A model generated the notes under the pieces. The model was not told the DNA's origin. It was given only the letters and a program-made list of their open reading frames with translations, and searched no databases. Positions 1,754-25,298 of a stretch of 64,000 bases of DNA are shown one piece after another. The number at the start of each line of letters is the position of its first letter. Positions within the stretch are counted from its first letter, which is position 1. The translations under genes and the position numbers were made by a program. Source of the stretch: Thauera phenolivorans (GTDB lineage: Bacteria; Pseudomonadota; Gammaproteobacteria; Burkholderiales; Rhodocyclaceae); assembly GCF_001696715.1 (NCBI RefSeq), contig NZ_MBFM01000002.1:62001-126000 (forward strand). The letters are read 5' to 3'.

Positions 1754-2220
1754 TGGCGAACGCACCCTTCTTCAAGCGCATCCTCGTCGTGTGCGTCGGC
1801 AACATCTGCCGCAGCCCCACCGCCGAGCACCTGCTGCGCGAGGCGCTCGGCGACTGCGGCGCCACCGTGTCCTCCGCCGGCCTCGGCGCGCTGGCCGGCC
1901 AGCCGATCGAGCCCACCGCGCTCGCGGTGCTCGCGCGCCGCGGCCACGCCCCCCAGCCACACGAGGCGCGCCAGCTCGACGACGCGCTGCTGGCGGACGC
2001 CGACCTGGTGCTGGTGATGGAGAAGGGCCACCTGCAGGAGATCGGCCGCCGCGCCCCGCAGGCGCGCGGCAAGACCTTCCTGCTCGGCAAGTGGCGCGGC
2101 GACGCTGAGATCCCAGACCCCTACCGCAAGGACGAGGCGGCTTTCGAGCTCGCCTTCGACCTCATCGACGACTGCGTCAAGACCTGGGCCGCGCGCATCG
2201 CGCCGCGCCAGATCACGTGA
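1753..2220 (+). CDS. wzb: Low-molecular-weight protein-tyrosine phosphatase (Wzb/EpsP type)
   Basis: A 155-aa protein of normal LMW-PTP length. The catalytic P-loop C-X5-R-S is seen as CVGNICRS with Cys14 and Arg20, and the general-acid loop as DPYRK with Asp122. In polysaccharide loci these cytoplasmic enzymes remove phosphate from the tyrosine cluster of the Wzc-type kinase, a cycle needed for polymer assembly. The kinase gene follows after 22 bases, which fits. The ATG overlaps the stop of the upstream yjbH-like gene. It could in principle be an arsenate reductase-like LMW protein, but the context argues against that. Confidence 0.93.
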   Translation: MANAPFFKRILVVCVGNICRSPTAEHLLREALGDCGATVSSAGLGALAGQPIEPTALAVLARRGHAPQPHEARQLDDALLADADLVLVMEKGHLQEIGRRAPQARGKTFLLGKWRGDAEIPDPYRKDEAAFELAFDLIDDCVKTWAARIAPRQIT

Positions 2221-2242: not shown

Positions 2243-4476
2243 ATGACCCGACCCGCTCCCCTCCAGCCGCAGACCTCGCCGCGTCGCGACGCCAATCGCG
2301 ACGACTTCATCAACCTCGGCGAGATCATCGGCGTCCTGCTCGACAACAAGTGGCTCATCGCCGGCGTCACCGCCGCCTTCGTCGTCGTCGGCGCCGGCTA
2401 CGCCACCTTGGCCACGCCGATCTACCGCGCCGACGCCCTGATCCAGGTCGAAAAGAAGTCCGGCGGCATCCCCGGCCTGTCCGACCTCGGCGACATGCTG
2501 GGCGCCGAGAGCAAGGCGGTCACCGAGATCGAGCTACTCAAGTCGCGCAGCGTCATCGGCGCCGCGGTGGACAATCTCAAGCTCGACCTCCGCGCCGAGC
2601 CGGTGCGCTTCCCGCTCATCGGCAACTGGTTCGCGCGCCGCTTCGTGCCCGCCACCCCGGGCGAGACCGCCGCGCCGCTGCTCGGGCTGGCGAGCTTCGC
2701 CTGGGGCGGCGAGCGGATCGAAGTTTTCCGGCTGGAGGTGCCGCCGGCGCTGGTTGGCGAGGAACTTGAGCTGGTGGCCGGGGCGGACGGCCATTTCAGC
2801 CTCGCCTACGAGGACACGACGCTGGCCGAGGGAAGGGTGGGGGAGGAGGTCGAGGCCAACGGCCTGCGCATCCAGCTCTCCGAGCTCGTTGCCCGCCCGG
2901 GCACCCGCTTCAACCTCGTGCGCCGCGACCGCCTCGCCACCGTGCGCGGCTACCAGGACGCGGTCGAAGCTCGTGAGCGCGGCCGCGACTCGGGCATCAT
3001 CGCCCTCGGGCTGGCCGACAGCGATCCTTCGCGCGCCAGCGCGGTGCTCGACGAGATCAGCAAGCAGTTCGTGCGCCAGAACGTCGAGCGCATGTCGGCC
3101 GAGGCCGCCAACAGCCTCGAGTTCCTGCGTGGCCAGCTGCCCGAAGTGCGCCGCGAGCTGGAGAAGGCCGAGGCCGCACTCAACACCTACCAGAGCCGCG
3201 CGCGCTCGGTCGACATCGGCCTCGAGACCCAGGCGGTGCTCGACCAGGTGGTCGGCCTCGAGACCCAGATCTCCAACCTGCGCCTGCAGCAGGCCGAGTA
3301 CGACCGCCGCCTCACCCGCGAGCACCCGCGCTACCAGGCCTTGCTCACCCAGCTCGCCGAGCTCAGCCGGCAGAAAGCCAGCCTGGCGGCCAAGGTCGAG
3401 AACCTGCCCGAAACACAGCAGGAGCTGCTGCGCTACACCCGCGACGTGCAGGTGAGTACCGAGATCTACACCCAGCTGCTGAACAAGGCGCAGGAGCTCG
3501 ACGTGGTGCGCGCCGGCACGGTGGGCAACGCTCGCCTCATCGACAGCGCCGCCGTCAACCGCCAGCAGCCGGTGGCGCCGCGCAAGGCGCTGATCGTGCT
3601 GCTCTCCGCCGTGCTCGGCGGCCTCGCCAGCCTCGGCCTGGTGTGGCTGCGCCGCTCGCTCAACAAGGGCCTGGAAACGCCCGAGGCGATCGAACAGCTC
3701 GGGCTCCCCGTGTATGCGACCGTGCCCTTCAGCGAGCAGCAGAAGAGCATCGAGGCCCAGCTGCGCCGCGCGCCCGCGGGCGCCAGCGGCAAGCCGGTGC
3801 TGCTCGCCGCCACCCACCCGCACGACCTCGCGGTGGAGTCGCTGCGCAGCCTGCGCACCAGCCTGCACTTCGCCATGCTCGAGGCCGCCGACAACCGCCT
3901 GATGATCTCCGGCCCCAGCCCCACCGTGGGCAAAACCTTCGTCTCCGCCAACCTCGCCGCGGTCATCGCCCAGGCCGGCCAGCGCGTGCTGCTGGTGGAC
4001 GTCGACATGCGCAAGGGCCGGCTGCACAAGCTCTTCGGCGCCAGGGCGGACAACGGCCTGTCGGATGTCCTCGCCAACACCTGCACGCTCGACGCCGCCA
4101 TCCATCGATCGGAGGTGGAAGGCCTCGCCTTCATCCCGCGCGGCCGCATCCCGCCGAACCCCTCCGAGCTGCTGATGCACGCCAACTTCACCGCCTTCCT
4201 CGACGAAGTCGGCAAGCGCTTCGACCTGGTCATCCTCGACACCCCGCCGCTGCTCGCCGTCACCGACGCCGCCATCGTCGGCCGCCAGGCCGGCACCAGT
4301 CTTATCGTCACGCGCTTCGGTATGAACGGCGCGCGCGAGATCGAGCTCACAGTTCGCCGTTTCGCCCAGAACGGCATCGACATCAAGGGTGCGATCTTCA
4401 ACGGCATCCAGAAACGCGCCGCCGCGTACGGCAGCTACCACTACTACCAATACGAATACAAATCCGAAAAAGCCTG

Positions 4477-4477
<1 letters not shown>
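2243..4477 (+). CDS. wzc: Wzc-type polysaccharide co-polymerase / tyrosine autokinase
   Basis: A 744-aa inner-membrane protein of the PCP-2a class. An N-terminal Wzz domain begins after a short cytoplasmic tail, with TM1 at about residues 36-58. A long periplasmic coiled-coil region follows, then TM2 at about 447-468 just after a proline-rich PRK-type motif. The cytoplasmic BY-kinase domain has Walker [10 protein letters not shown] near 557-565 and Walker A' [10 protein letters not shown] near 582. The tail has a tyrosine cluster ([11 protein letters not shown], six Tyr), the usual autophosphorylation site. The protein would control chain length and couple Wzy polymerisation to export, with the upstream phosphatase as partner. 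No Wza exporter gene is visible; it may lie upstream of the window. Confidence 0.94.
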
Positions 4478-5795: not shown

Positions 5796-5821
5796 TGTAG
5801 GAGCGCCGGCAGGCGCGAACC
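5796..5821 (+). repeat. Half copy of the GTAGGAGC REP-like repeat
   Basis: The sequence starts TGTAGGAGCGC and forms a short imperfect palindrome ending GGCGCGAAC, in the 118-base gap between the dehydrogenase and epimerase genes. It resembles the left half of the paired repeats at 22345, 29854, 29958 and 40640. No right half is present. Confidence 0.5.
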
Positions 5822-5881
5822 CAGCCGCGAAGCACCCCAACGCCCCCCGCGAACCCGGCCACTCCGCCCCACCGAGCACCC

Positions 5882-6907
5882 ATGACGCGCTACGAAGAAC
5901 TCTGCCTCGACCTCCCCAAGAACCCGAAGACCTGGCTCGTCACCGGCGCAGCCGGCTTCATCGGGTCCAACCTGCTCGAGACCCTTCTCAAGCTCGATCA
6001 ACGGGTCATTGGCCTCGACAACTTCGCCACCGGCTACCAGCGCAACCTGGATGAAGTCATGGGCCTCGTCACGCCCGACCAATGGGCCCGCTTCACCTTT
6101 ATCGAGGGGGATATCCGCAACCTCGATGACTGCCGGCGCGCTTGCGAGAGGGTGGATTACGTCCTGCATCAAGCGGCATTGGGTTCTGTTCCGCGCAGCC
6201 TCAATGATCCGATCACTAGTAACGCCACCAATATCGATGGCTTCCTGAACATGCTCGTCGCCGCGCGTGATGCGATGGTAGCCAGTTTTACCTATGCCGC
6301 CAGCAGTTCGACATACGGGGATCACCCTGGTTTGCCGAAAGTCGAGGATGTGATTGGAAGGCCTCTTTCCCCCTACGCCATTACCAAGTATGTGAACGAA
6401 CTATACGCCGAGGTTTTTTCTCGTAGTTATGGGTTTTCGACAATAGGCCTGCGATATTTTAACGTATTCGGAAAGCGACAGGATCCGAACGGGGCCTACG
6501 CTGCGGTTATCCCAAAATGGACTGCAGCGATGATTGCCGGGGAAAATGTCTTCATCAATGGTGACGGCGAAACCAGCCGGGACTTCTGTTTTGTCGATAA
6601 TGCAGTGCAGGCCAATCTCCTCGCCGCCGCCGCCACGGCTGAGTGTGCGCGAAACCAAGTCTATAACGTGGCTGTCGGGGGGCGCACCACGCTTAACCAA
6701 CTCTTCCACGCTTTGCGTCAGGTACTTGGCGAGCAGGGTGTTGTCTATGATAGGGCACCAGTTTACAACGATTTTCGATCTGGTGATGTCCGCCACTCTC
6801 AAGCAAATATTGAGAAGGCTGGTACGCTGCTCGGTTACCGTCCTACTTCCGATATTCGAGCCGGTATTGTAGCCTTTATTCCGTGGTGCATCAAAGTGTA
6901 TTCATGA
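5882..6907 (+). CDS. UDP-GlcNAc/GlcNAcA C4-epimerase (WbpP/TviC type), copy 1
   Basis: A 341-aa extended SDR enzyme. The NAD motif GAAGFIG is near residues 23-29 and the catalytic Tyr165-X3-Lys169 is in [12 protein letters not shown], with the SSSTYGDH serine region before it. The family interconverts UDP-GlcNAc and UDP-GalNAc (or their uronic acids) and acts with the dehydrogenase encoded just upstream. Base composition changes inside the gene: the first ~250 bases use GC-ending codons like the flanking genes, whereas after about 6140 codons such as TTT, TCT, CGT and ATA become common. A diverged paralogue, frameshifted, lies at 28802-29820. Epimerase versus another SDR sugar enzyme is judged by style. 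Confidence 0.9.
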
Positions 6908-7145
6908 TAAACGTTAGGTGAATTCGCTCACCTGCTAAGGTTTTCACTAAGGAGTTTGTACGCCGCTCTAACTTTTCAGGTTATTAGATTTCTGGCTTTC
7001 CTGGTGCTAGTGAATGAAATGCTAATATAAAGTTGCAGCATTCTCTTGATTAATTGAGAAAAATATGGTTTGCAAGTGCGTCGCTAGGTTTCTTGACGCG
7101 CTCCTCAAGAAAATAGTGACTAATTTGCAAGTGGAAGTCGAAAAT
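6908..7145. other. AT-rich intergenic leader, no gene seen
   Basis: This 238-base gap marks the change from GC-rich to AT-rich DNA. An open frame from 7065 runs into the glycosyltransferase, but its first 27 codons do not look like the family, so I treat them as leader. TAATAT near 7025 could be a -10 box; no convincing -35 pairs with it. Confidence 0.4.
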
Positions 7146-8234
7146 ATGGTCCGTGTTCTCCATGTTTTTGCGAACCTAAATTTGGGTGGCGCGGAAAGTC
7201 GAATAATTGATGTCTATAAAAAAGTAGACAGGAGTAAAGTCCAGTTTGATTTTCTCATTCTTACCGATGATGATTGCTACTTTGAACGCCAAATTTTGCA
7301 TTTAGGAGGGCGTATTTTTCGGGTTAAGCACCCAAGGCTTGGTATGTATCGGCACCTTAAGGACCTGGCAAATGTTCTGAGGAGTAATAGATTTCATGCG
7401 GTCCATTCGCATACATCTTATTATTCGGGTCTGGTAATGGCGATGGCCTGGTGCTTTGGGGTGAAATATAGGGTTAGTCATGCAAGAAACCAAGTTTTTG
7501 CCCCAGGGTCGTGGAAGGTAACCGCTATGTTCTTGGTTGGACGGTTGCTCTGTCGTTTTTTTTCCACGTCTCGACTTGCCATTTCAAAGCCCGCAGGCCT
7601 TTTTCTTTTTGGCAAAAATGCCGATTTTGATGTAATTCCTAATGCATTTGACTTTGAGAGTGTGTTACCAAGGGCGGGGATTGGTTTTGCGAAAGGGTTA
7701 GATAGTGGCGCCTTAAAGATCGTGATGGTTGCGCGATTTTCAAAAGTTAAAAATCATCACTTCGCATTACATGTTCTGAGCGATCTCGTACGTAATTACG
7801 ATGAAAATGTCACCCTGGATTTGATTGGATCGGGTGATCAAGAGGTTGAAATCAGAAATCTCGTGGCGAGTCTTAAGCTAGAAAATAACGTTAGGTTTTT
7901 GGGTAAGCGAGACGATGTGAAAGAGTTGCTTTGCAAATTTCATTGTTTGATTCTCCCGTCTTTCTCTGAGGGCTTAGGCGTTGCTGCTTTAGAGGCTCAG
8001 GCTGCGTGCCTGCCGTGTATCGTATCTGAGGGTGTGCCCGCCGAAGTGGATATTGGGATGGGGCTTTGCCGTCGTGAGCCTTTGGTGATTGAACGTTGGG
8101 TGTGCGTGTTGAAAAGTCTTAAGTCGTTTCCTCGGGTTTCAAAGTCAGAGGTTGACGCACGCCTTCGCTTTCTTGGATATTCCTTAGAGCGGACATCTTC
8201 CATCTATCTAGAGAAATACGGAATTCAACAGTGA
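7146..8234 (+). CDS. GT4-family glycosyltransferase
   Basis: A 362-aa GT-B fold enzyme. The N-terminal domain begins MVRVLHVFANLNLGGAE, a typical GT4 acceptor-side loop. The donor-binding E-X7-E motif appears as E-GLGVAAL-E in the C-terminal third (near residues 274-282), followed by CIVSEGVP. It should transfer one sugar from a nucleotide donor to the growing undecaprenyl-linked repeat unit at the inner face of the membrane; the sugar cannot be told from sequence. I use the ATG at 7146, with GGAAG about 10 bases upstream, rather than the ATG at 7065. Codon use is AT-rich compared with the window. The stop overlaps the next gene (GTGA). Confidence 0.85.
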   Translation: MVRVLHVFANLNLGGAESRIIDVYKKVDRSKVQFDFLILTDDDCYFERQILHLGGRIFRVKHPRLGMYRHLKDLANVLRSNRFHAVHSHTSYYSGLVMAMAWCFGVKYRVSHARNQVFAPGSWKVTAMFLVGRLLCRFFSTSRLAISKPAGLFLFGKNADFDVIPNAFDFESVLPRAGIGFAKGLDSGALKIVMVARFSKVKNHHFALHVLSDLVRNYDENVTLDLIGSGDQEVEIRNLVASLKLENNVRFLGKRDDVKELLCKFHCLILPSFSEGLGVAALEAQAACLPCIVSEGVPAEVDIGMGLCRREPLVIERWVCVLKSLKSFPRVSKSEVDARLRFLGYSLERTSSIYLEKYGIQQ

Positions 8235-9295
8235 AAAGAGTTCTCCAAATCATTCCGACATTGCAGTACGGCGGGATCTCATCAGTCGTTAGCGGGTGGA
8301 GTGAAGTGTCTCACCGTATCGACTATCACTTTGACTATATAGCTTTTAATGACGGCCCTCTTAAGAAAGTATTTGAAGATCAGGGGGCTACCGTTTACGT
8401 TTTACCAACGATCAGGAAAAACCCGGTTGCCTATTTTCTCGGGTTGATCCACATTTTTTTTGCCGAAAGGTATGATGTTGTACATGTCCATAATAGTTTT
8501 AAAAACGGCATGGCCTTGCTGTTAGCGAGGCTGATGCGTGTTAAGGTTAGAGTTTGCCACGCGCATACTTCTGGGCTTGAAGACAAAAGTCTTGGCTTTT
8601 CTCTCTCGATACTGAAGTTTTTAGCAGTTAAGAATGCCACTGTGCGCCTTGCTTGCAGTAGAAAAGCAGGGGATTTTCTCTATGGGAAGCAGCCTTTTTC
8701 TGTTTTAAATAATGCGATTGATGTTCAGTCAATTCTGGATGAAGCTGGCGATTCGGATGCTACAAAGGAAAGGTACTGCCTTCCAAAAAACAAAATCATC
8801 GTTGGTCATGTAGGGCGATTTGTTGCAGTGAAAAATCATGAGTTTATACTCAAGTTGGCGCAATCTCTGTCCGATGACTATCACTTTGCTTTAGTGGGTA
8901 GTGGTGGTCTGAGGGATAAAATAAAAAAGCAGGTCTTAGATCTAGGGTTGTCGAGCCGGTTTAGTTTCATCGAGCCAACAAAGGAGATTCCAGCGATTCT
9001 TCGCACGTTTGACGTGTTTGTGTTGCCGTCCTTTTTTGAAGGTTTGTCTATGGTGGCATTAGAGGCGCAAGCGTCTCGGCTACCGTGTATTGTCTCAGAT
9101 CGAGTTCCTCCAGAGGCTGACGTCGGCTTGGGCTTGCTTACATATCTACCGCTTGAAGACTTCCACTCTTGGGTGAGATTGATTAAGAATTTGCCCCGTA
9201 TAGAAATTTCGCGAGCCGACGTCGATGCTGCGTTTAACAAAAAGGGGTATACGACTAGGTCGCTTGTTCAGAAGATCAAGGAAGTCTACGGCTAA
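8231..9295 (+). CDS. GT4-family glycosyltransferase (EpsF-like)
   Basis: A 354-aa GT-B enzyme starting with GTG in a 4-base overlap with the preceding glycosyltransferase. The N-terminus has the GG-loop (LQYGGISSVV) and the C-terminal half the E-X7-E donor motif as E-GLSMVAL-E, followed by CIVSDRVPPEADVGLGL. That tail resembles EpsF-type glycosyltransferases of exopolysaccharide loci. It is clearly related to the neighbour at 7146-8234, so the pair may come from an old duplication. It should add a second sugar to the same lipid-linked unit. Base composition is AT-rich, as in the rest of the variable core. Confidence 0.86.
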   Translation: MKRVLQIIPTLQYGGISSVVSGWSEVSHRIDYHFDYIAFNDGPLKKVFEDQGATVYVLPTIRKNPVAYFLGLIHIFFAERYDVVHVHNSFKNGMALLLARLMRVKVRVCHAHTSGLEDKSLGFSLSILKFLAVKNATVRLACSRKAGDFLYGKQPFSVLNNAIDVQSILDEAGDSDATKERYCLPKNKIIVGHVGRFVAVKNHEFILKLAQSLSDDYHFALVGSGGLRDKIKKQVLDLGLSSRFSFIEPTKEIPAILRTFDVFVLPSFFEGLSMVALEAQASRLPCIVSDRVPPEADVGLGLLTYLPLEDFHSWVRLIKNLPRIEISRADVDAAFNKKGYTTRSLVQKIKEVYG

Positions 9296-9380
9296 GTAAA
9301 TCCTATTTCGCCTCTATGTGGTACAAAAATTTCGCGCTAGATGCTGTTTCCTGTGGGAGTTGACCTCTCAACAAACTTGA

Positions 9381-9656: not shown

Positions 9657-9662
9657 GGGGAT
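9653..9662 (+). repeat. Target-site duplication of the ISAs1-family element, left copy
   Basis: GTGAGGGGAT immediately left of the left terminal repeat; the same ten bases occur at 10964-10973 immediately right of the right terminal repeat. Confidence 0.93.
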
Positions 9663-10963: not shown

Positions 10964-10973
10964 GTGAGGGGAT
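10964..10973 (+). repeat. Target-site duplication of the ISAs1-family element, right copy
   Basis: GTGAGGGGAT, identical to 9653-9662 and directly abutting the right terminal inverted repeat. Confidence 0.93.
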
Positions 10974-11420: not shown

Positions 11421-11595
11421 CAAGAACTCCATGGTGTCGGCCATCCGCCGCGACTACGGGCACTACCGGTACGTTTGTTGAGAAGTCAATTTTCACTGCA
11501 AACCGCACAGAGCCAGAAAGAGCGTAACAGGATAAAGTGGTTTCGTGCGTGTTAAACGGCGAGAAAACGAGGCACAGGCCAAGATCGGAAGACGT

Positions 11596-13005
11596 ATGAC
11601 TCTTAAGAACATCATCGGGTTTGCAGTAGGCCCACTTGCGTCCGCGGGTTTGGGCTTGATTCTCGTCCCCGTCGTGGCATGGAGTTTTGCGCCATCAGAT
11701 GTGGCACGAATGAACGTGTTTCAGATTGCAGTTTCTTTTTCTTTACTCTTTACAGTGCTAGGGCTAGATCAGGCCTATGTGCGCGAATATCATGAAACTA
11801 ATAACAAGGGCCAATTATTACGGAGTTGTTTTCTTCCTGGTTTTATGCTGCTTGGTGCTGTCGGGGCTATTAGCCTCCCGTTTTCGGGTGACTTGGCTTT
11901 TCTGCTCTATGAGCGAGCGGACCCAGTTTTGTATTTTCTTACTGTGTCTGCTTTTTTTGCTTCGTACCTATCTCGCTTTTTAGCTCTAACATTAAGAATG
12001 CAGGGTCGAGGTTGGGCGTATTCAGTAAGTCAGGTAATTCCGAAAGTTTTGCAGTTAATTCTTGTGCTTGTTATTGTCATAACATTTTCGGCTAGAGATT
12101 TCTTGCAGCTACAAAGTACGATGCTGCTCTCTATGGTTGCTGTTGTCTTTTTTTGCGTGTGGAATACCCGGGTTGAGTGGAAAAACGCGTTAAAAAAAGA
12201 TATTCAGTTTGCTGAATTAAAAAAACTACTGGCTTTTGGCTTCCCGTTAATGTTTTCGAGTTTAGCGTACTGGGGCTTGACCGCTGCTAGCACGCTTGCA
12301 CTTCGTGCATGGTCTAGTTTAGATGAGCTCGCTGTCTACTCTGTTGCAGGCAGCTTCGCAGGGGCAGCAATCGTATTTCAATCGATCTTTACTGTGATAT
12401 GGGCGCCGACGGTATATAGATGGGTTTCTGAAGGCGCAGATATGAGCGTGGTTGACCGCGTTGCAAAACAGGCAATGGCTATTATTTTCGCGATTGTCGC
12501 AATCTGTGGCAGTTTGTCTTGGCTTTGTGATTGGTTGTTGCCTAGTAGGTACAGCGACGTTAAATATATTCTGATGTGCATGTTGATGCAGCCGCTCCTT
12601 TATACGCTGTCGGAGATTACGTGTGTTGGTATTGGGATACAGCGTCGGACAATTCATTCGGTTTGGATTACTTTATTGGCCATGCTCATAAATATAGTGT
12701 TAGGTTATTTTCTTGTTCCGTCGCATGGTGCGGCTGGTGCCGCAGCCTCCAATGCGATTGCTTTCAGCGCATTCTTTTTTGCACGAACGGAAGTTTCGTC
12801 AAGAATTTGGCGGAGTATTCCGCGAGGAAATCTATATTTCTGTGTGACCTTGCTGGTTAGCCTCGCTATAGGGATGTCCTTCTGGGCGACGTTTTTCCAA
12901 AGCCTCGCTCACATATCATGGGTGCTCTTATTTCTCTTTTCCTTATATTTTTATCGGGAACAGTGGGTGGAGTTGGCTGCGTTGCTGGGTAAAAGCAGGC
13001 GCTAG
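11596..13005 (+). CDS. Polysaccharide flippase, Wzx/MATE-like
   Basis: A 469-aa very hydrophobic protein with about 12-14 predicted membrane segments, starting MTLKNIIGFAVGPLASAGLG as in the polysaccharide_synt family of flippases. It should move undecaprenyl-diphosphate-linked repeat units across the inner membrane. I start at the ATG at 11596, preceded by GGAAG at 11587-11591; the longer frame from 11545 adds a charged stretch absent from the family. The gene is AT-rich, like the neighbouring glycosyltransferases. It now lies between two IS elements, the ISL3/ISAs1 nest upstream and the IS1380-family element downstream, but is itself uninterrupted. Confidence 0.85.
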   Translation: MTLKNIIGFAVGPLASAGLGLILVPVVAWSFAPSDVARMNVFQIAVSFSLLFTVLGLDQAYVREYHETNNKGQLLRSCFLPGFMLLGAVGAISLPFSGDLAFLLYERADPVLYFLTVSAFFASYLSRFLALTLRMQGRGWAYSVSQVIPKVLQLILVLVIVITFSARDFLQLQSTMLLSMVAVVFFCVWNTRVEWKNALKKDIQFAELKKLLAFGFPLMFSSLAYWGLTAASTLALRAWSSLDELAVYSVAGSFAGAAIVFQSIFTVIWAPTVYRWVSEGADMSVVDRVAKQAMAIIFAIVAICGSLSWLCDWLLPSRYSDVKYILMCMLMQPLLYTLSEITCVGIGIQRRTIHSVWITLLAMLINIVLGYFLVPSHGAAGAAASNAIAFSAFFFARTEVSSRIWRSIPRGNLYFCVTLLVSLAIGMSFWATFFQSLAHISWVLLFLFSLYFYREQWVELAALLGKSRR

Positions 13006-13033
13006 ATTGGTTAGCCAGGAAACACTGCCTCTC

Positions 13034-14729: not shown

Positions 14730-15026
14730 CTGAGATTCTGCGGGAGATCTTGATTTAAGAAATGACGCTGCTGGTGGGTAAGTTAATGGTAATTTCGTAT
14801 GTGCTTGCTGCGAGCTGCAGAAAAGGTGTGGTGTATCGTTATGGAATGCGGGTATTGCGGCGTGTAGAAGAAATTGGTGGTGTCGTAGCGATTGGGCTTC
14901 CGTAAGACTCTTGCGTTTAAATTAAAAAGGTCAGAGATCTCAGGCGGTTGAATGTCGATGAAGATGCAGAGGGGCGTTAGTCGCTGAGTATTTTTTTGGC
15001 GTAGTTGATTTTGTAAGGTGTTCCAC
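14730..15026. other. AT-rich intergenic stretch upstream of the Wzy gene
   Basis: These roughly 300 bases hold no convincing gene. TAAGG at 15014-15018 serves as ribosome binding site for the GTG start at 15027. The IS1380-family element separates this leader from wzx, so the downstream genes may depend on a local promoter or on read-out from the insertion. Confidence 0.4.
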
Positions 15027-16280
15027 GTGAATACGCAGAAGAGAGAAGAGATAATTAATCGCTTTGCACTTGCAAGTTTTTTCTTATTTTTTGTATCGTC
15101 TCAGATTAACTTTATATTTCCGGGTGCTTTAGAGCTGACATACGTTTTAATATTTATTTTTTCAGTAGTCGTAATGAGTGGGGGTGAAATCGAAAAAGTT
15201 TGGTTTAAGTACATAATATTGTTTTTCGTATTTTTTCTTCTTTCGTTGATAGTGTATTTTTATGGGGGGCGTGGTGATCTTCCGCCTAGACCTCTGTTTG
15301 TTTATAGCTTTCTGTTGGTCTGCTTGCTATTTGTTGGGGCTAATTTAAATAGGAGTGAATCATTAAGGGGGCGCGCGTTTGACGTGGTTAGGTTTTCGCT
15401 TTGGTTTGAGGTGTTCATTGTATTTGCACAGTTCAGCTATTTAGAGTGGGGTGTGGGACTCGCGCCGCGGGCGGAGAATGCTGAGTGGTCAGGGTCGTTG
15501 ACTGGTAGTTATGGGAATCCAAACAATGTATCGGTAATGATTGTTTTGACAGTTTTGTTCTTGATTATTGTTGGAAAAATAAGGTTTGATATTTCCGGCT
15601 TTGGTATCTTATTGGCGTCTGGTGGTGCCGTTCTAATCTTGCTATCACGAACGGCGTTAATAGGGTATTTAACTGTTCTTTTTTATTTCTTTCTCAAAGA
15701 AAGTGATCTGGTTAATTTTAAGCTCTCCGGAAAGGTCTTGCGGGTATTTGGTTTGGCGATAATCTGTGGATTGCTAGCAGTTGGCGTTAATATAGAAGGC
15801 TTTGAGAGCAACGTGATTGCGCGTTCCATAGCAAAGTTTTCAACAATAAACGCACTTGTGGAGGATCAGTCAACGGAGTTTCGTATCTTGTCTTCCGTTA
15901 GGTTAGTCGAAAATATTGGAAGACTTGGCTTTGGGACAATGTCCGATTTGAACTATGGAAAATTCTTTGCGAGCTACGATAGTTCGCTCGCAAAAATGAA
16001 TCCACATTCTTTTATTGTAGAGATTTCTTTTCTTTTGGGTTATGTGGGGCTTTCAATTGCGATCATTTTCTTTTGTTTTCTTTTCTATGATATCTATAGT
16101 GGGAGTATGTCCTTCGTCTTTTCCTGCTATGTGATAGCGCTGTTTTTACTGTTCCAGTTTGTTCCGTCTACTGTCTTCAGATTGCCGATGTTTTTCTATG
16201 TTATGGTGTTAATTTGTATTTTCGGCGGAGATCGGGCTGCGAGGCAGACGAGTCCTTCGGGGGGCGGTCGGGTACAGTAG
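15027..16280 (+). CDS. O-antigen polymerase/ligase-like membrane protein (Wzy)
   Basis: A 417-aa, strongly hydrophobic and AT-rich gene product with about ten membrane segments and a large periplasmic loop before the last three. A conserved-looking segment SLTGSYGNPNNVSVMIV and the later LLSRTALIGYLT match the Wzy/WaaL style. With a flippase, Wzc and initiating transferase in the same locus, the most likely role is periplasmic polymerisation of the repeat unit. I choose the GTG at 15027, nine bases after TAAGG; another GTG at 15018 is in frame. These proteins are poorly conserved, so ligase versus polymerase cannot be separated by sequence. Confidence 0.75.
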   Translation: MNTQKREEIINRFALASFFLFFVSSQINFIFPGALELTYVLIFIFSVVVMSGGEIEKVWFKYIILFFVFFLLSLIVYFYGGRGDLPPRPLFVYSFLLVCLLFVGANLNRSESLRGRAFDVVRFSLWFEVFIVFAQFSYLEWGVGLAPRAENAEWSGSLTGSYGNPNNVSVMIVLTVLFLIIVGKIRFDISGFGILLASGGAVLILLSRTALIGYLTVLFYFFLKESDLVNFKLSGKVLRVFGLAIICGLLAVGVNIEGFESNVIARSIAKFSTINALVEDQSTEFRILSSVRLVENIGRLGFGTMSDLNYGKFFASYDSSLAKMNPHSFIVEISFLLGYVGLSIAIIFFCFLFYDIYSGSMSFVFSCYVIALFLLFQFVPSTVFRLPMFFYVMVLICIFGGDRAARQTSPSGGGRVQ

Positions 16281-16317
16281 GTTAAGCGTCTTTCTTGATG
16301 GGGCCTTTGATTGGTGA

Positions 16318-17451
16318 ATGTGCAAAATGAAATTTCTTGTCATCGCTGGGTTTCCTGATTCGTTAATACAATTTCGGGGTGCGCTGTTAGATTCCTTACT
16401 GGCGTGCGGCCTATCGGTGGTCGTTGCAGCACCAGATCTGCCGGAGGGTAGTGCCGTGCGGACACTGCTTGAGGCGAAAGGGATCAAGGCGCACGATATC
16501 CCTTTGACGCGAACTGGTATGAATCCGGTGGCAGATTTGATTACGCTTATATATCTACGACGATTGATGCTTCGGGTTCGGCCGGACTTCGTTCTGGGGT
16601 ATACGATTAAGCCGGTCATCTACGGGTCGTTGGCCGCAAGACTGGCAGGGGTGCCCAGATCTTTCGCCCTGATAACGGGATTGGGTTATGCGTTTACGGG
16701 CTCCCACGGTAGAGGGCTGCGTGGAGTAGTGCGCAGTTTGGCTCTAAGGCTCTATCGGTTGGCGCTGCGAGGTAGTAGTAAAGTTTTTTTTCAGAATCCT
16801 GACGACGAGGCTCTGTTTCGAAATTTGCGCTTGCTTACCGCATCGAAGCCGTCGTATGTCCTCAATGGCTCGGGCGTTGATCTGGCGCGGTTTTGCGTTG
16901 CGAGATTCCCAGAGACCCCCAGTTTTCTGCTTATTGCGCGACTGCTCGGTGATAAAGGCATTCGCGAGTATGCGGAAGCTGCGCGTCTGGTACGTTCGAA
17001 GTATCCAAGCGTCGTTTTCAGACTTGTTGGGTGGATCGACAGTAACCCCGATGCGATACGGTCGGATGAACTGGATGGATGGGTCCGGGATGGCACGCTT
17101 GATTATCTGGGGCGACTGGAGGACGTGCGGCACGCCATTGCGGATTGTAGCGTGTATGTGCTGCCGTCTTATCGGGAGGGTACTCCACGCACCGTGCTTG
17201 AGGCGATGGCGATGGGGCGGCCGGTGATCACGACCGATGCGCCGGGATGTCGAGAAACGGTTGTGGACGGTGATAACGGGTTTCTCGTACCAGTGAAGTC
17301 GGTAGGGGAGTTGGCGGAGGCGATGACGAGGTTTATCGAGGATCCGGAGCTGGCGCGTTGTATGGGTAGCCGGTCACGATTAATTGCCGAGGAGAAATAT
17401 GACGTTCGTCGGGTGAATGCGGTAATGCTAAGAGAGATGGGGGTCCAATGA
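16318..17451 (+). CDS. GT4-family glycosyltransferase (PglA-like)
   Basis: A 377-aa GT-B enzyme. The N-terminus (KFLVIAGFPDSLIQFRGALL) and GYTIKPVIYGSLAARL resemble PglA/WbaZ-type transferases that add the second sugar, often GalNAc, onto lipid-linked bacillosamine. The donor motif is E-GTPRTVL-E near the C-terminus, followed by GRPVITTDAPGCRETV. The stop overlaps the next gene, the initiating PglC-like transferase, by four bases, so the first two sugar-adding steps are encoded together. The start could also be the ATG at 16327. GC content rises through this gene, from the AT-rich core back to the high-GC flank. Confidence 0.85.
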   Translation: MCKMKFLVIAGFPDSLIQFRGALLDSLLACGLSVVVAAPDLPEGSAVRTLLEAKGIKAHDIPLTRTGMNPVADLITLIYLRRLMLRVRPDFVLGYTIKPVIYGSLAARLAGVPRSFALITGLGYAFTGSHGRGLRGVVRSLALRLYRLALRGSSKVFFQNPDDEALFRNLRLLTASKPSYVLNGSGVDLARFCVARFPETPSFLLIARLLGDKGIREYAEAARLVRSKYPSVVFRLVGWIDSNPDAIRSDELDGWVRDGTLDYLGRLEDVRHAIADCSVYVLPSYREGTPRTVLEAMAMGRPVITTDAPGCRETVVDGDNGFLVPVKSVGELAEAMTRFIEDPELARCMGSRSRLIAEEKYDVRRVNAVMLREMGVQ

Positions 17452-18053
17452 TCAAACGGATGTTCGACGTCTTGGCTTCGGCGTTGGGCCTGTTGTTGCT
17501 CGCCCCGGTAATTCCAATCCTCGCCTGGCAGATCCGCAACAAGCTCGGCTCCCCCGTCCTCTTCCGCCAGACCCGCCCCGGCCTGCACGGCCAGCCCTTC
17601 CAGATGGTCAAGTTCCGCACCATGCGCGACGCCATCGGCCCGGACGGCCAGCCGCTGCCCGATTCCGAGCGCATGACGCCCTTCGGCAGCTTTCTGCGTT
17701 CGGCCAGCCTGGACGAGCTGCCCGAGCTGTGGAACGTGCTCAAGGGCGACATGAGCCTGGTGGGGCCGCGGCCGCTGCTGATGGAATACCTGCCGCTGTA
17801 TTCGCCCGAGCAGGCGCGCCGCCACGCGGTGCGCCCGGGGGTGACGGGCTGGGCGCAGATCAACGGGCGCAATGCGTTGAGCTGGGAAGAGAAGTTTCGC
17901 CTGGACGTGTGGTATGTGGACAACCAGTCGTTCTGGCTCGACCTGAAGATCCTGGCGCTGACGGTGAAGAAGGTGTTCGTGCGCGAGGGGATCAGCGCGG
18001 CGGGCGAGGCAACGATGGCGAAATTCACCGGCTCGGCAGCGAGGGACAAGTGA
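17448..18053 (+). CDS. Initiating sugar-phosphate transferase (PglC/WcaJ-C family)
   Basis: A 201-aa monotopic phosphoglycosyl transferase, the minimal PglC-type length without the extra WcaJ N-terminus. The re-entrant membrane helix is at residues 5-27 (MFDVLASALGLLLLAPV). The catalytic Asp-Glu pair is Asp89-Glu90 in SLDELPEL, followed by LKGDMSLVGPRPL and RPGVTGWAQINGRN. It should transfer a sugar phosphate from a UDP-sugar to undecaprenyl phosphate, starting the repeat unit. The next genes encode the acetyltransferase, aminotransferase and dehydratase that would supply UDP-di-N-acetylbacillosamine, so that sugar is the likely substrate. Confidence 0.92.
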   Translation: MIKRMFDVLASALGLLLLAPVIPILAWQIRNKLGSPVLFRQTRPGLHGQPFQMVKFRTMRDAIGPDGQPLPDSERMTPFGSFLRSASLDELPELWNVLKGDMSLVGPRPLLMEYLPLYSPEQARRHAVRPGVTGWAQINGRNALSWEEKFRLDVWYVDNQSFWLDLKILALTVKKVFVREGISAAGEATMAKFTGSAARDK

Positions 18054-18712
18054 TGCAGGACGCGCTCTATTGCGTGTATGGCGCGAGCGGGTGCGGGCGC
18101 GGGATCATGCCGCTCGCGCGCGAGCAGGCGCGCGCGCTCGGAATGGCGGCGGACCGCCTGGTGTTCGTGGATGACGCGGCGCAGCCGGGCCAGGTGCTGA
18201 ACGGGCAGCGGGTGCTGAGCTACGAAGCCTTTATGGCGGAACCCGCGGGCACGCGCTTTGCGGCGCTGGCGATCGCTAACAGTGCGGTGCGCGCGAAGCT
18301 GGCCGCGCGGCTGGAGGCGGACGGCGTGCGGCCGTGGACGGTGGCGGCGTCGAACGTGGTGGTGATGGACGAGGTGGAACTGGGGGAGGGCGCGCTGCTG
18401 AGCCCCTTCGTGACCCTGACCTCGAACATCCGGATCGGTCGCTTCTTCCACGCCAACCTGTATAGCTACGTCGAGCACGACTGCGTGATCGGCGACTTCG
18501 TGACCTTTGCGCCGGGCGTCCAGTGCAACGGCAACATCGTCATCGAGGATCGCGCCTACATCGGCACCGGTGCGGTGATCAAGCAGGGCAGGCCTGGCGA
18601 GCCGCTGGTGATCGGCCGCGGCGCGGTGGTGGGCATGGGCGCGGTGGTGACGAAGAGCGTGCCGGCGGGCGCCACGGTGGTGGGCAACCCGGCGCGGGTG
18701 ATGCAGAAGTAG
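18053..18712 (+). CDS. PglD/NeuD-type sugar O/N-acetyltransferase
   Basis: A 219-aa protein. The N-terminal half is a small Rossmann-like domain beginning YCVYGASGCGRGI. The C-terminal half is a left-handed beta-helix of hexapeptide repeats from about residue 100, ending VVGMGAVVTKSVPAGATVVGNPAR. A histidine in YSYVEHDCVIGD sits where PglD has its catalytic base. In the bacillosamine pathway PglD acetylates the 4-amino group of UDP-4-amino-4,6-dideoxy-GlcNAc with acetyl-CoA. The ATG overlaps the upstream stop by one base. NeuD-type sialic acid acetylation is the main alternative, but no sialic acid genes are present. Confidence 0.88.
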   Translation: MQDALYCVYGASGCGRGIMPLAREQARALGMAADRLVFVDDAAQPGQVLNGQRVLSYEAFMAEPAGTRFAALAIANSAVRAKLAARLEADGVRPWTVAASNVVVMDEVELGEGALLSPFVTLTSNIRIGRFFHANLYSYVEHDCVIGDFVTFAPGVQCNGNIVIEDRAYIGTGAVIKQGRPGEPLVIGRGAVVGMGAVVTKSVPAGATVVGNPARVMQK

Positions 18713-18766
18713 GGGCCGCGCTAGTGGCGGCCCTTTCAATCGAATGAATGGAATGACGAGTTCGTA

Positions 18767-19942
18767 ATGCTCAATACGCCTTTTAGCCCTTGGCCCAACT
18801 TCACCGCGGAAGAGGCCGACGCGGTTCGCGATGTGGTGCTCTCCAACCGGGTGAATTACTGGACCGGCCAGGAATGCCGGCAGTTCGAGACCGAGTTCGC
18901 TGCGTGGGCGGGTACGGCGCACGCGGTGGCGCTGGCCAACGGCACGGTGGCGCTGGACGTGGCCCTGCAGGCGCTCGGCATCGGCCCGGGGGACGAGGTG
19001 GTGGTGACGCCGCGCACCTTCCTCGCCTCGGTGTCGAGCATCGTGAACGCGGGCGCCACCCCGGTGTTCGCCGAGGTGGATCGCGACAGCCAGAACATCA
19101 CCGCCGACACCATCCGCGCGGTGCTGAGCCCGCGCACCCGGGCGGTGATCTGCGTGCACCTGGCGGGCTGGCCGTGCGACATGGACCCGATCATGGCGCT
19201 GGCCGAGGCGCACGGCCTGAAGGTGATCGAGGACTGCGCCCAGGCCCATGGCGCGCGCTACGAGGGGCGCGGCGTGGGTTCGATCGGCCATGTGGGGGCG
19301 TGGTCCTTCTGCCAGGACAAGATCATGACCACCGGGGGCGAGGGCGGCATGGTGACAACCAACGACCGCGCGCTGTGGTCGCGCATGTGGTCGCTCAAGG
19401 ACCACGGCAAGAGCTGGGAGGCGGTGTACGAGCGCGAGCACCCGCCCGGCTTCCGCTGGCTGCACGAGAGCTTCGGCACCAACTGGCGGATGATGGAGAT
19501 GCAGGCGGCGATCGGCCGCATCCAGCTGCGGCGCATGCCGGCCTGGCACGCAGAGCGGGTGCGCAACGCGAACGCGATCTGGCACGCGGCGCGCGCGCTG
19601 CCCGGCCTGCGCGTGCCGGAGGTGCCCGCCGACATCGAGCACGCCGCCTACAAGTGCTACGTGTTCGTCGAGCCGCAGGCGCTGAAGCCGGGCTGGAGCC
19701 GCGACCGCATCCTGCACGAGATCAACGCGCTGTCGGTGCCGTGCTACTCGGGCTCGTGCTCGGAGGTGTATCTGGAGAAGGCCTTCGACGGCACCGGCTG
19801 GCGGCCGGAGACGCCGCTGGCGGTGGCGCGCGAGCTGGGCGAGACGAGCCTGATGTTCCTGGTGCATCCCGGCCTGAGCGCGGACGAGATCCAGCGCAGC
19901 TGCGACGCCCTGGCGCAGGTGATGACGCGGGCGGCGGGCTGA
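18767..19942 (+). CDS. PLP-dependent sugar aminotransferase (PglE-like, DegT/DnrJ/EryC1 family)
   Basis: A 391-aa aminotransferase of the usual family length. The PLP-binding lysine is Lys185 in SFCQDKIMTTGGEGG, and the cofactor pocket shows IEDCAQAHGA at about 155-163. It would convert the UDP-4-keto-6-deoxy-GlcNAc made by the PglF-like enzyme to the 4-amino sugar with glutamate as donor. The gene lies between pglD-like and pglF-like genes, which supports this role over perosamine or other amino-sugar synthesis. Its stop overlaps the start of the VanZ-like gene by one base. Confidence 0.9.
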   Translation: MLNTPFSPWPNFTAEEADAVRDVVLSNRVNYWTGQECRQFETEFAAWAGTAHAVALANGTVALDVALQALGIGPGDEVVVTPRTFLASVSSIVNAGATPVFAEVDRDSQNITADTIRAVLSPRTRAVICVHLAGWPCDMDPIMALAEAHGLKVIEDCAQAHGARYEGRGVGSIGHVGAWSFCQDKIMTTGGEGGMVTTNDRALWSRMWSLKDHGKSWEAVYEREHPPGFRWLHESFGTNWRMMEMQAAIGRIQLRRMPAWHAERVRNANAIWHAARALPGLRVPEVPADIEHAAYKCYVFVEPQALKPGWSRDRILHEINALSVPCYSGSCSEVYLEKAFDGTGWRPETPLAVARELGETSLMFLVHPGLSADEIQRSCDALAQVMTRAAG

Positions 19943-20319
19943 TGGGCGAGCGCCTGAGCGCACTGCTGCGGCTGGTGTTCTGGGGCGCGTGCGCGGCGAT
20001 CGCGGTGGCGTCGCTGCTGCCCGGCCCCTGGCTGCCGCCGGCGGCCTTCGACCTGTGGGACAAGGCGCAGCACGGGCTGGCCTTCCTGCTGCTGGCGGTG
20101 CTCGGGTTCGGGGCTTTTCCGGGGGCGGTGGGCCGGGTCGCGCTCGGGCTGCTGGCCTACGGCGTCGCCATAGAGCTCGCCCAGGCCGCGACCGGCTGGC
20201 GGTATGGCGACTGGCAGGACTGGCTGGCCGATGCGGTGGGGGTGCTCGCCGGCTATCTGATGTGGGGATTGGGTCGGGCAGTGACCGACGATCGAAGAAA
20301 GGCGGAATGTGATGCGTAG
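19942..20319 (+). CDS. VanZ-like small membrane protein
   Basis: A 125-aa protein with about four hydrophobic segments. The VanZ pattern is visible: a conserved DKAQHGLAFLLLA after the first loop and GYLMWGLGR at the end, with WRYGDWQDWLADAVGV between. VanZ-like proteins occur in many envelope loci, but their biochemical role is unknown outside teicoplanin resistance. Here the gene is wedged between the aminotransferase (one-base overlap) and the dehydratase (eight-base overlap), so it is probably translated with them. No function should be claimed beyond membrane location and co-expression. Confidence 0.75.
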   Translation: MGERLSALLRLVFWGACAAIAVASLLPGPWLPPAAFDLWDKAQHGLAFLLLAVLGFGAFPGAVGRVALGLLAYGVAIELAQAATGWRYGDWQDWLADAVGVLAGYLMWGLGRAVTDDRRKAECDA

Positions 20320-22330
20320 TTCACTGTTACGGCTGCCGCGCCGCTACAAGCGCGTGCTGCAGGTGGCGGCCGACGTGGTGCTGGTGTGGGCGGCCTTGTG
20401 GCTGGCTTTTCTGATCCGGCTGGAGGCAGTGGGCCCGATCGAACCCTTCGGCGGCCATGCCTGGCTGTTTCTGCTCGCGCCGGTGGTGACGCTGCCGTTC
20501 TTCGTGGTGCTCGGCCTGTATCGGGCGGTGCTGCGCTACGTGGGGCGCCACGCGCTGATCACGATCGGCAAGGCGGTGACGCTGGCGACGATGGTGCTGT
20601 TCATGGTGGTGCTCCTGATGCCGGCGCAGGAGGTGGTGGTGCCGCGCTCGGTGCCGGTGATCTACTGGGGCACGGCGATGTTGCTGCTCGGCGGGCTGCG
20701 TTTGCTGATGCGCAATTACTTCGTCGCCGACGGGGTCGCGAGCCCGAGCGGCGAGCGCAAGCCGCGGGTGCGGGTGGTGCCGCGTCCGCAGCGACCCGCG
20801 GCGGCGATCTACGGCGCGGGCACGGCGGGCAACCAGATCGTGAGCGGTCTGCGCGCGGGCAACGAGCTGCGGCCGGTGGCCTTCGTGGACGACGACCCCT
20901 CGCTGTGGAACACGGTGGTGGGCGGCTTGCCGGTGTATGCGCCGCACGACATCGGCCGCATGCTGGCGGCGACCGGCGCCACCGAGATGCTGCTGGCGAT
21001 TCCGTCGGCGCCGCGGCGGCGGCGGCGCGAGATCCTCGCGCTGCTCGATCCCTACCCGGTGCACGTGCGCACGCTGCCGGGCCTGAAGGCGCTGTGCGAA
21101 GGCTCGGTGAAAGTGGAGGACCTGCGGGACGTGGAGATCGACGACCTGCTAGGCCGCGAGCCGGTGGCGCCCGAGCGCGGGCTGTTCGAGCGCTGTATCG
21201 TGGGCCAGGCGGTGATGGTGACCGGCGCGGGCGGCTCGATCGGCTCGGAGCTGTGCCGTCAGATCGTCACCTGCCGGCCGCGGGCGCTGGTGCTGTTCGA
21301 GCATTCGGAGTTTGCGCTGTATTCGATCCAGACCGAGCTCGAGCGCGTGATCCGCTCGCGCGGGCTGGCGATCGAGCTGGTGGGCATCCTCGGCTCGGTG
21401 CGCAACAACGAACGCATGCTCGACGCCTTGAACGCCTGGCGGGTGGACACGGTGTACCACGCGGCGGCCTACAAGCATGTGCCGATCGTGGAACACAACG
21501 TCGCCCAGGGCTTCTTCAACAACACCATGGGCACGCTGCTCTCGGCGCAGGCGGCGATTCGCGCCGGGGTGAGCAACTTCGTGCTGATCTCCACCGACAA
21601 GGCGGTGCGCCCGACCAACGTCATGGGCGCGACCAAGCGCCTGGCCGAGCTCGTGCTGCAGGCGCTGGCGGCCGAGCGCGCGCCGGTGCTGTTCCGCGAG
21701 GAGGCGCGCGGCGCGGTGGAAAACCGCACCCGCTTCACGATGGTGCGCTTCGGCAACGTGCTCGGCTCGTCGGGCTCGGTGATCCCGCTGTTTCGCGAGC
21801 AGATCCGCCGCGGCGGGCCGGTGACGGTGACCGACCCGCGCATGACGCGCTACTTCATGACCATCCCCGAGGCCGCGCAGCTGGTGATCCAGGCCGGGTC
21901 GATGGGCGAGGGCGGTGACGTCTTCGTGCTCGACATGGGCGAGCCGGTGAAGATCGTCGAGCTGGCCGAACGCATCGTGCATCTGTCGGGGCTGACGGTG
22001 CGCTCCAACGAGCGCCCCGAGGGCGACATCGAGATCCTGTTCACCGGCCTGCGCCCGGGCGAAAAGCTCTACGAGGAGCTGCTGATCGGCGACAACGTGC
22101 TGCCCACCGCCCACCCGATGATCATGCGCGCCACCGAGGAGCGCCTGCCCTGGAGCGAGCTCGTGCCCGCCCTGCAGTCCATCGTCGAAGCCATCCAGCA
22201 CGCCGACTACCCGCGCGTGCGCGAGCTGCTGCAGGCGCTGGTGAGCGGGTACACCCCGGACGAGCGCCTCGTGGATCTGATCTACACGCGGCGGGCGGGG
22301 CTGGAAGACGCCCCCAGCGCCGCCGCCTGA
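20312..22330 (+). CDS. Membrane-bound UDP-GlcNAc 4,6-dehydratase (PglF/WbpM/CapD family)
   Basis: A 672-aa protein. It has four N-terminal membrane helices (about 14-130), a Rossmann-like CoA-binding domain (about 165-290), and a C-terminal extended SDR domain with TGAGGSIGSELCRQI near 305. The active site has the STDKAVRPTNVMGATKR pattern, in which Met replaces the classic SDR tyrosine, as in PglF and WbpM. It should convert UDP-GlcNAc to UDP-4-keto-6-deoxy-GlcNAc, the first step to bacillosamine. The ATG at 20312 lies six bases after an AAAGGCGGA ribosome site; GTG at 20309 is an alternative. It is the last gene of this plus-strand block before a REP-like repeat. Confidence 0.92.
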   Translation: MRSSLLRLPRRYKRVLQVAADVVLVWAALWLAFLIRLEAVGPIEPFGGHAWLFLLAPVVTLPFFVVLGLYRAVLRYVGRHALITIGKAVTLATMVLFMVVLLMPAQEVVVPRSVPVIYWGTAMLLLGGLRLLMRNYFVADGVASPSGERKPRVRVVPRPQRPAAAIYGAGTAGNQIVSGLRAGNELRPVAFVDDDPSLWNTVVGGLPVYAPHDIGRMLAATGATEMLLAIPSAPRRRRREILALLDPYPVHVRTLPGLKALCEGSVKVEDLRDVEIDDLLGREPVAPERGLFERCIVGQAVMVTGAGGSIGSELCRQIVTCRPRALVLFEHSEFALYSIQTELERVIRSRGLAIELVGILGSVRNNERMLDALNAWRVDTVYHAAAYKHVPIVEHNVAQGFFNNTMGTLLSAQAAIRAGVSNFVLISTDKAVRPTNVMGATKRLAELVLQALAAERAPVLFREEARGAVENRTRFTMVRFGNVLGSSGSVIPLFREQIRRGGPVTVTDPRMTRYFMTIPEAAQLVIQAGSMGEGGDVFVLDMGEPVKIVELAERIVHLSGLTVRSNERPEGDIEILFTGLRPGEKLYEELLIGDNVLPTAHPMIMRATEERLPWSELVPALQSIVEAIQHADYPRVRELLQALVSGYTPDERLVDLIYTRRAGLEDAPSAAA

Positions 22331-24599: not shown

Positions 24600-24621
24600 G
24601 CCGGAATTATACCCGATCATG

Positions 24622-24981
24622 CTACGTAACTGATTGGTAATGCAGCGTTTTATGCGGTTTAGCCGCCCACAGATCGAAGCCTTCGAGCAGCCACTCAAGC
24701 TCCTTCATCGTCAGCGTGCAGGTGGGCTGGCCCGCCTCGGCCGCCGGCCAGGCGAAGCGCTCGGCTTCGAGTCGCTTGTACCAGAGGCAGAAGCCGTTGC
24801 GGTGCCAGTACAGCGCCTTGAGCTTGTCGCGGCGGCGGTTGATGAACAGGTACAGCGCGTCGCCGAACGGGTTTAGCCCCAGTTCCTGCTCGACCAGCGC
24901 CGACAGCCCGCCGATGGATTTGCGGAAGTCGATCGCCGGCCGGTACAGATACACCGCGCCGATGGTGTGCCCCGGATGCAT
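24622..24981 (-). CDS. tnpB: IS66-family accessory protein TnpB
   Basis: A 119-aa IS66 Orf2 protein. The signature is clear: a start like IGAVYLYRPAIDFRKSIGGL, then GDALYLFINRRRDKLKALYW, and WYKRLEAERFAWP. The ATG at 24981 overlaps the tnpA stop (ATGA), indicating translational coupling. TnpB is required together with TnpA and TnpC for IS66 transposition, but its biochemical activity is not established. Confidence 0.95.
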   Translation of the reverse strand: MHPGHTIGAVYLYRPAIDFRKSIGGLSALVEQELGLNPFGDALYLFINRRRDKLKALYWHRNGFCLWYKRLEAERFAWPAAEAGQPTCTLTMKELEWLLEGFDLWAAKPHKTLHYQSVT

Positions 24982-25298
24982 CAGCGCCTCCGCTCCGAGA
25001 GCGCCGCCGACAGCGCGGCCAGCCAGTCGACGCCGGGCAGCGTCGCGCACTCGAGCCGCAGCTGTGCGCCGATCATTACCGTGCAGCCCGTGCGGGCCGT
25101 CATCGAAGGCTCGATCTGGATCGGAACGAATCCGCCAAGCTTGGCGCGGCTGCGGCGACCGCCGGCCACCAGGCGCTTACGCCATTGGTAAAGCGCTTGC
25201 GGCGACAGGCCCTCGCGCTCGGCGTAGGCCTTCGTGGTGATGCCCTCGGCCTCGATCGCCGACAGGTGCGACAACCAAAACGTGCTGCGCTCCGACAT
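24981..25298 (-). CDS. tnpA: IS66-family accessory protein TnpA (helix-turn-helix)
   Basis: A 105-aa protein with an N-terminal helix-turn-helix of the transposase_8 type: FWLSHLSAIEAEGITTKAYA followed by EREGLSPQALYQWRKRL. It is the first gene of the three-gene IS66 operon and probably binds the element's ends. The C-terminal half after GGFVPIQIEP is less conserved. Its stop overlaps the tnpB start. Confidence 0.93.
   Translation of the reverse strand: MSERSTFWLSHLSAIEAEGITTKAYAEREGLSPQALYQWRKRLVAGGRRSRAKLGGFVPIQIEPSMTARTGCTVMIGAQLRLECATLPGVDWLAALSAALSERRR

Follow-up and report, generated by a model that had tools for sequence, protein, structure and literature searches.

Genes for making and using UDP-di-N-acetylbacillosamine (UDP-diNAcBac) have been described from several bacteria, and the enzymes of the lineage considered here (PMC8040287), corresponding Acinetobacter K loci (PMC3628348, PMC3726653) and the phosphoglycosyl transferase (PGT) of an exopolysaccharide (EPS) operon (PMC10653937) are already in print. 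We analyzed a 64,000-nucleotide stretch of the Thauera phenolivorans genome (the window; positions 62001-126000 of contig C7 in an assembly of 3.69 Mb and 14 contigs) that contains a run of genes of this kind. With a probability of about 0.86, we consider that this module supplies the sugar nucleotide and the initiation step for a Wzx/Wzy capsule or EPS locus, in which the chain would be started with diNAcBac. The Acinetobacter wee/qhb clusters (WeeH/ItrA1, WeeI/QhbA, WeeJ/QhbB, WeeK/Gdr) contain the same four functions in a capsule locus with wza-wzb-wzc, wzx and wzy (PMC3628348, PMC3726653), whereas the host and the other sugars differ and the insertion of a VanZ-family gene belongs to the window. 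By description, EpsC/N/M/L of Bacillus subtilis are similar in that UDP-diNAcBac is synthesized and serves as substrate for the PGT of an EPS operon, although this operon is Gram-positive (PMC10653937). Psychrobacter cryohalolentis Pcryo_0612/0638/0637 (PDB 7L7X-7L82) share with the window the lineage of the aminotransferase and the acetyltransferase, the contact residues and the predicted product, but they serve O-antigen synthesis and the dehydratase gene 0612 has a distant locus number, whereas the genes in the window form a single run together with a PGT and a VanZ gene. The start of the Campylobacter N-glycan by PglF, PglE, PglD and PglC has the product in common with our prediction. The PGT of the window is 53% identical (103/195 positions) to C. 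concisus PglC (8g1n), and the catalytic domain of the dehydratase is 47% identical (146/313 aligned positions) to 5bju, which is listed as WlaL and which we take to be PglF. In contrast, PglE (presumably 4ztc) and PglD (3bss) are distant and differ in active-site residues, and no STT3 match was found in the Thauera genome. Many related bacteria carry comparable gene sets, and enzymes closely related to these have already been investigated, so the locus is an ordinary case of a familiar module; it allows the sugar that starts an otherwise uncharacterized polysaccharide to be predicted with good confidence.

The predicted product UDP-diNAcBac is well supported, because the aminotransferase and the acetyltransferase are close to the assayed Pcryo_0638 and Pcryo_0637 and the contact residues are largely kept. 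The pyridoxal phosphate-dependent aminotransferase (18767..19942, + strand; DegT/DnrJ/EryC1 307 bits) matched the solved chain 7l7x with 610 bits and 69% identity (266/385 aligned positions), while the next chain reached 193 bits and 4ztc only 85 bits. 7L7X is the structure of Pcryo_0638, which shares the substrate of PglE but binds its ligand in a different manner, and both Pcryo_0638 and Pcryo_0637 were assayed on the UDP-diNAcBac pathway (PMC8040287). We checked 13 aminotransferase positions named in the structure paper (PMC8040287) and found 11 of them kept, namely Trp9, Pro10, Thr60, Asp156, Gln159, Ser180, Gln183, Lys185, Lys215, Asn239 and Gly337. For comparison across genomes, we used the best 80 of at least 587 aminotransferase relatives that public genomes yielded; most of the 80 come from Pseudomonas-related or betaproteobacterial records and share 74-82% identity. 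The two aromatic exchanges, Y229F and F335Y, were also present in 78/80 and 28/80 of these relatives, respectively, and Gln183, which holds the C2 acetamido group, and the Schiff-base Lys185 were found in the window and in all 80. An assignment to the PglE lineage was rejected, as PglE has Gly in the place of Gln183 (PMC8040287) and 4ztc scored so low. By its sequence, the aminotransferase belongs to the Pcryo_0638 lineage (Acinetobacter WeeJ).

The acetyltransferase (18053..18712, +) scored 172.5 bits with the NeuD/PglB/VioB-family acetyltransferase model (cut-off 160.8) and is 63% identical to 4m9c, presumably A. baumannii WeeI, and 58% identical to Pcryo_0637. In PMC8040287, 4M9C is named solely as search model. 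All nine checked positions are kept, including those corresponding to Pcryo_0637 His142, Cys13 and Gln178 (C14, H142 and Q178 in the numbering of the window protein). Cys13 and Gln178 are the positions at which Pcryo_0637 departs from PglD, which has His15 and Asn162 (PMC8040287). With Cys14 and Gln178 in place of these residues and only 50.5 bits to the PglD chain 3bss, membership of the PglD lineage was discarded, and the enzyme, a putative UDP-4-amino-sugar N-acetyltransferase, belongs to the Pcryo_0637 lineage (Acinetobacter WeeI). The initial annotation had described a module of the PglC-D-E-F type; the acetyltransferase and aminotransferase functions agree with our analysis, but the lineage is that of Pcryo_0637/0638 (WeeI/WeeJ), and a label such as 'PglD/PglE-type' can thus mask enzymes that reach the same sugar but come from another lineage.

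A very similar pathway that ends with a 4-N-acyl group other than acetyl, e.g. a 3-hydroxybutyryl derivative, is improbable. It draws on Acinetobacter K loci, for which either acetyl or 3-hydroxybutyryl was the predicted group added by enzymes of the WeeI/QhbA type, and on the RAG-1 repeat unit, in which the hydroxybutyryl form is present (PMC3628348). Against it, Pcryo_0637, which is 58% identical and agrees in its contact residues, showed acetyltransferase function in assays and was crystallized with acetyl-CoA/CoA (PMC8040287). In the 80 loci compared, the position of the acetyltransferase was taken by a Wee-type enzyme (at least 50% identity) in 13, by a more distant relative in 54 and by neither in 13 (same strand, up to 9 kb). 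For one of the 54 distant enzymes (locus L009), the nearest solved structure was that of a pilin glycosylation protein (4m98), and this lineage would presumably acetylate as well. One slot thus holds either a Wee-type or a more distant PglD-like acetyltransferase, although the aminotransferase and PGT genes next to it are much alike (L006-L085).

The dehydratase ORF (20312..22330, +, alternative GTG start 20309; Polysacc_synt_2 403 bits) is predicted to encode a membrane UDP-GlcNAc 4,6-dehydratase of the WbpM/PglF class. Numbered from the ATG at 20312, it contains T428-D429-K430 and M438-x3-K442, with Met438 at the position that Tyr usually occupies in the superfamily. Of the 80 loci, 67 had a same-strand dehydratase ORF, and Met occupied this site in all 67. 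The PglF-type Met-for-Tyr site pointed out earlier is therefore present, but the TDK...Mx3K motif is common to WbpM and PglF, and the chemistry of PglF is done by Thr395/Asp396 and Lys397 and not by Met (PMC8987622). Because WbpM has the same site, we dismissed Met-for-Tyr as a bacillosamine marker; by itself it is no pointer to this sugar.

The PGT gene (17448..18053, +; Bac_transf 217 bits) encodes a protein of 201 aa with an Asp89-Glu90 dyad and a GPRP motif, in line with the minimal PglC-like transferase that had been recognized initially and with the small monotopic PGT class. EpsL, the PGT of the B. subtilis EPS operon, is 58% identical to C. concisus PglC and was active with UDP-diNAcBac in vitro (PMC10653937). 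In a survey of 121 genomes of the host's family (68 genera, host included), in which aminotransferase matches with E up to 1e-100 and PGT matches with E up to 1e-40 were listed, the aminotransferase was present in 15 genomes. The PGT search matched 32/121 genomes, of which 15 scored 264 bits or more (61-100% identity) and the remainder 151 bits or less. The PGT class and the aminotransferase occurred in the identical set of 15/121 genomes (12/68 genera; Fisher 2e-19), which ties the PGT to diNAcBac. The exact overlap is a usable hint for annotating the donor sugar of PGTs; it is of modest use, as is the finding that one slot can hold acetyltransferases of two lineages.

Several observations weigh against our reading of the module, with diNAcBac as the first sugar, or limit the weight of this co-occurrence. 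The Fisher value is not corrected for relatedness among the genomes, the score gap that marks the PGT boundary was chosen after the search, aminotransferase relatives weaker than E 1e-100 are outside the count, and one genome (G103) has PGT and aminotransferase on separate contigs. At 53% identity to C. concisus PglC, the PGT could still use another donor sugar. For the initiating transferases of such loci in Acinetobacter, the first sugar was left open in one study (PMC3628348), and in another GlcNAc was argued to come first in some clusters (PMC3726653), so the presence of diNAcBac genes alone is no proof that diNAcBac comes first. In addition, the host genome contains three Bac_transf PGTs, and other chains may therefore start otherwise. 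The full collinear gene set was not seen in 29/80 of the loci compared, a contig end close to the aminotransferase truncates 4/80, and the VanZ ORF of the window has no place in the scheme proposed below. Taken with the similarity to Pcryo_0638/0637, the kept residues and the co-occurrence of PGT and aminotransferase, diNAcBac as initiating sugar, as originally proposed, is nonetheless the reading that we support.

The PGT gene is preceded by a GT4 glycosyltransferase gene (16318..17451, +), which carries Pfam GT4 domains. Its best solved relative is the diNAcBac-PP-undecaprenol alpha-1,3-GalNAc transferase 8dqd, which we take to be PglA, with 125 bits, while the next different enzyme reached 47 bits, in line with the earlier description as PglA-like. 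This GT4 probably adds the second sugar. Its linkage to the PGT across related loci is moderate: of the 61 loci in which a PGT adjoins, 27 had a GT4 match that ended no more than 200 bp from the start of the PGT, and in 15 of the 27 its identity was at least 45%.

Read from sequence relationships, active-site residues, gene order and co-occurrence, the pathway would proceed as follows. The membrane dehydratase would convert UDP-GlcNAc to UDP-4-keto-6-deoxy-GlcNAc, the aminotransferase would place an amino group onto C4, and the acetyltransferase would cap the 4-amino group to yield UDP-2,4-diacetamido-2,4,6-trideoxy-glucose (UDP-diNAcBac). The PGT would then transfer diNAcBac-1-phosphate to undecaprenyl phosphate, with the Asp89-Glu90 dyad carrying the covalent intermediate, and the GT4 would add the second sugar. 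The completed unit could be flipped by Wzx, polymerized by the Wzy-like protein and exported via the Wza-Wzc system encoded just upstream.

According to the ORF listing of the window, the GT4, PGT, acetyltransferase, aminotransferase and dehydratase genes are each intact on the + strand, and with their strong family matches the genes of the module are real and had been placed correctly. The overlapping order that had been claimed holds for four junctions (GT4/PGT 4 bp, PGT/acetyltransferase 1 bp, aminotransferase/VanZ 1 bp, VanZ/dehydratase 8 bp) but not between acetyltransferase and aminotransferase, where a gap of 54 bp is the sole non-overlapping junction from GT4 to dehydratase. The aminotransferase does not directly precede the dehydratase either, since an ORF for a small VanZ-family protein (19942..20319, +, 125 aa; PF04892 33 bits, cut-off 30.1; NF037970 22 bits) had been overlooked between them. 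Among the 80 related loci, searched by tblastn, a PGT with at least 55% identity ended within 1 kb upstream of the aminotransferase in 60. The order PGT-acetyltransferase-aminotransferase was found in 56 and the full collinear set with the dehydratase in 51, of which nine had a Wee-type and 42 a more distant acetyltransferase. A stricter ORF-based collinearity count gave 36/80, as mechanical ORF starts extend upstream of the acetyltransferase, and we used the tblastn count. In the stretches surrounding the aminotransferase in the 14 other genomes of the family that contain it, the PGT was matched in 13, the acetyltransferase in 12 and the dehydratase in 10.

The surroundings of the module bear on the fate of the polymer. 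To the left of the window (stretch L109) lie Wza (Poly_export, Wza_C), GfcB/YjbF and GfcC, and a gene for a YjbH/GfcD-type export protein spans the left edge (1..1753, +, frame open past the edge; PF06082 585 bits for 248-1750). They are followed, all on the + strand, by a Wzb-type phosphatase (1780..2220; PF01451, residues 523-659 of the mechanical ORF 214-2220), a Wzc-type tyrosine autokinase (2243..4477; NF008568 763 bits, under the cut-off of 1068, and TIGR01007 above cut-off), a TviC-type UDP-HexNAc(A) C4 epimerase (5882..6907; NF011728 504 bits, under the cut-off of 760), two GT4 glycosyltransferases of low GC content (7065..9295), a Wzx-type flippase (11545..13005; PF01943 E 4e-13, above cut-off) and a Wzy-like protein, possibly the polymerase (15018..16280; Wzy_C 17.4 bits, under the cut-off of 31.7, no NCBIfam match). 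Next come the GT4 at 16318 and the PGT module. Thus, wza, gfcB/C, yjbH (gfcD), wzb, wzc and wzx were found, and the wzy match stayed under its cut-off. The wza-gfcB/C-yjbH-wzb-wzc set presumably represents group-4-type capsule export, and the locus resembles such an export set with a Wzx/Wzy repeat-unit region. Away from the insertion sequences, most of 7000-16600 has a GC content of about 41-47%; windows next to these elements reach 53-56%, and the initiation module has 63-74%. A low-GC island thus separates the export genes from the module, both of which are high in GC. The repeat-unit genes therefore look foreign and the initiation module host-like. With export genes upstream and a low-GC island containing wzx, wzy-like and glycosyltransferase genes, capsule or EPS is the most likely fate of the polymer, and the Wza/GfcB/GfcC/YjbH/Wzb/Wzc, Wzx and Wzy-like context favors the EPS product suggested by the initial annotation.

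The best-surviving alternative, which we still regard as unlikely, is that the diNAcBac-started glycan goes mainly to proteins via an O-oligosaccharyltransferase encoded elsewhere in the genome. An intact putative O-glycosylation ligase of the exosortase-A type (TIGR03097 506 bits, cut-off 188) is present on contig C9 (stretch L001, 1174-2511), together with four more Wzy_C places on the same contig. In A. baumannii, moreover, a protein-linked pentasaccharide has the structure of the capsule unit of another strain (PMC3628348). On the other side, the module sits within an export and polymerase locus, and the genome contains no match to STT3, a model that matched 4/14 controls, all archaea, and thus had no bacterial PglB control. 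Nor was PF11846, presumably the domain carried by PglL, matched in the genome, whereas the same model scored above cut-off in 5/185 genomes of the class (24/185 with any match). The search for PglB or PglL suggested at the outset thus returned no STT3 and no PF11846 match, and the TIGR03097 ligase is present on contig C9. PF15864 gave no match anywhere searched and is uninformative as a model, and TfpM was matched only weakly with 20.7 bits. That the window lacks an oligosaccharyltransferase holds insofar as the whole-genome searches placed no STT3 or Wzy_C match above threshold in it, all five Wzy_C places being on contig C9, but the Wzy-like ORF at 15018-16280 does carry the sub-threshold Wzy_C match. 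A PGT of the XrtA system (TIGR03013, 513 bits) is encoded on contig C8 (L087, 1480-2868).

With an E limit of 1e-5, only one of the 80 related loci had a VanZ homolog, and this lay 5 kb away from the aminotransferase; none was found in the 14 family loci (E limit 1e-3), and more distant VanZ proteins would escape both searches. We therefore rejected VanZ as a standing part of the module. A quite remote scenario, in which one diNAcBac-started unit has two fates, capsule and, via the TIGR03097 O-ligase, proteins, would let VanZ act in the partition at the membrane; if true, it would give the uncharacterized TIGR03097 ligase family a donor glycan.

Least probable of all is a dehydratase that feeds a 4-reductase, so that the polymer starts with N-acetylquinovosamine (QuiNAc) or N-acetylfucosamine (FucNAc): the TDK...Mx3K class is common to WbpM (PMC8987622) and the dehydratase product can also lead to these sugars (PMC3628348), but an aminotransferase and an acetyltransferase of the assayed type adjoin, the sole other sugar short-chain dehydrogenases/reductases among the subset of ORFs scanned in 214-40601 are two TviC-type epimerase copies, and the PGT is PglC-like, whereas in Pseudomonas WbpL-type enzymes start QuiNAc/FucNAc chains (PMC3628348, PMC3726653).

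The second of these epimerase copies (28802-29811) is 75% identical to the copy at 5882-6907 over 909 bases and has full length, but its frame shifts near 29119; with the frame change and the neighboring transposases, it looks like a broken duplicate. Insertion sequences of five families (ISAs1, IS1380, IS66, IS1634, IS110) lie within and to the right of the polysaccharide locus at 9752-10945, 13086-14486, 22920-25298, 25587-27287 and 27368-28579, and two of them break up the run of polysaccharide genes. Two small ORFs at 24622-25298 are presumed to belong to the IS66 element. Further to the right, the window contains a LigA gene at 34874-36940; of 12 genomes compared, 11 gave a match to LigA, and that of Aromatoleum toluolicum was the closest with 72%, so the host is probably a Rhodocyclaceae-like betaproteobacterium. 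Between Wzc and the epimerase (4478-5881), where the - strand has a long ORF (4444-5883), the two + strand ORFs scanned gave no Pfam match.

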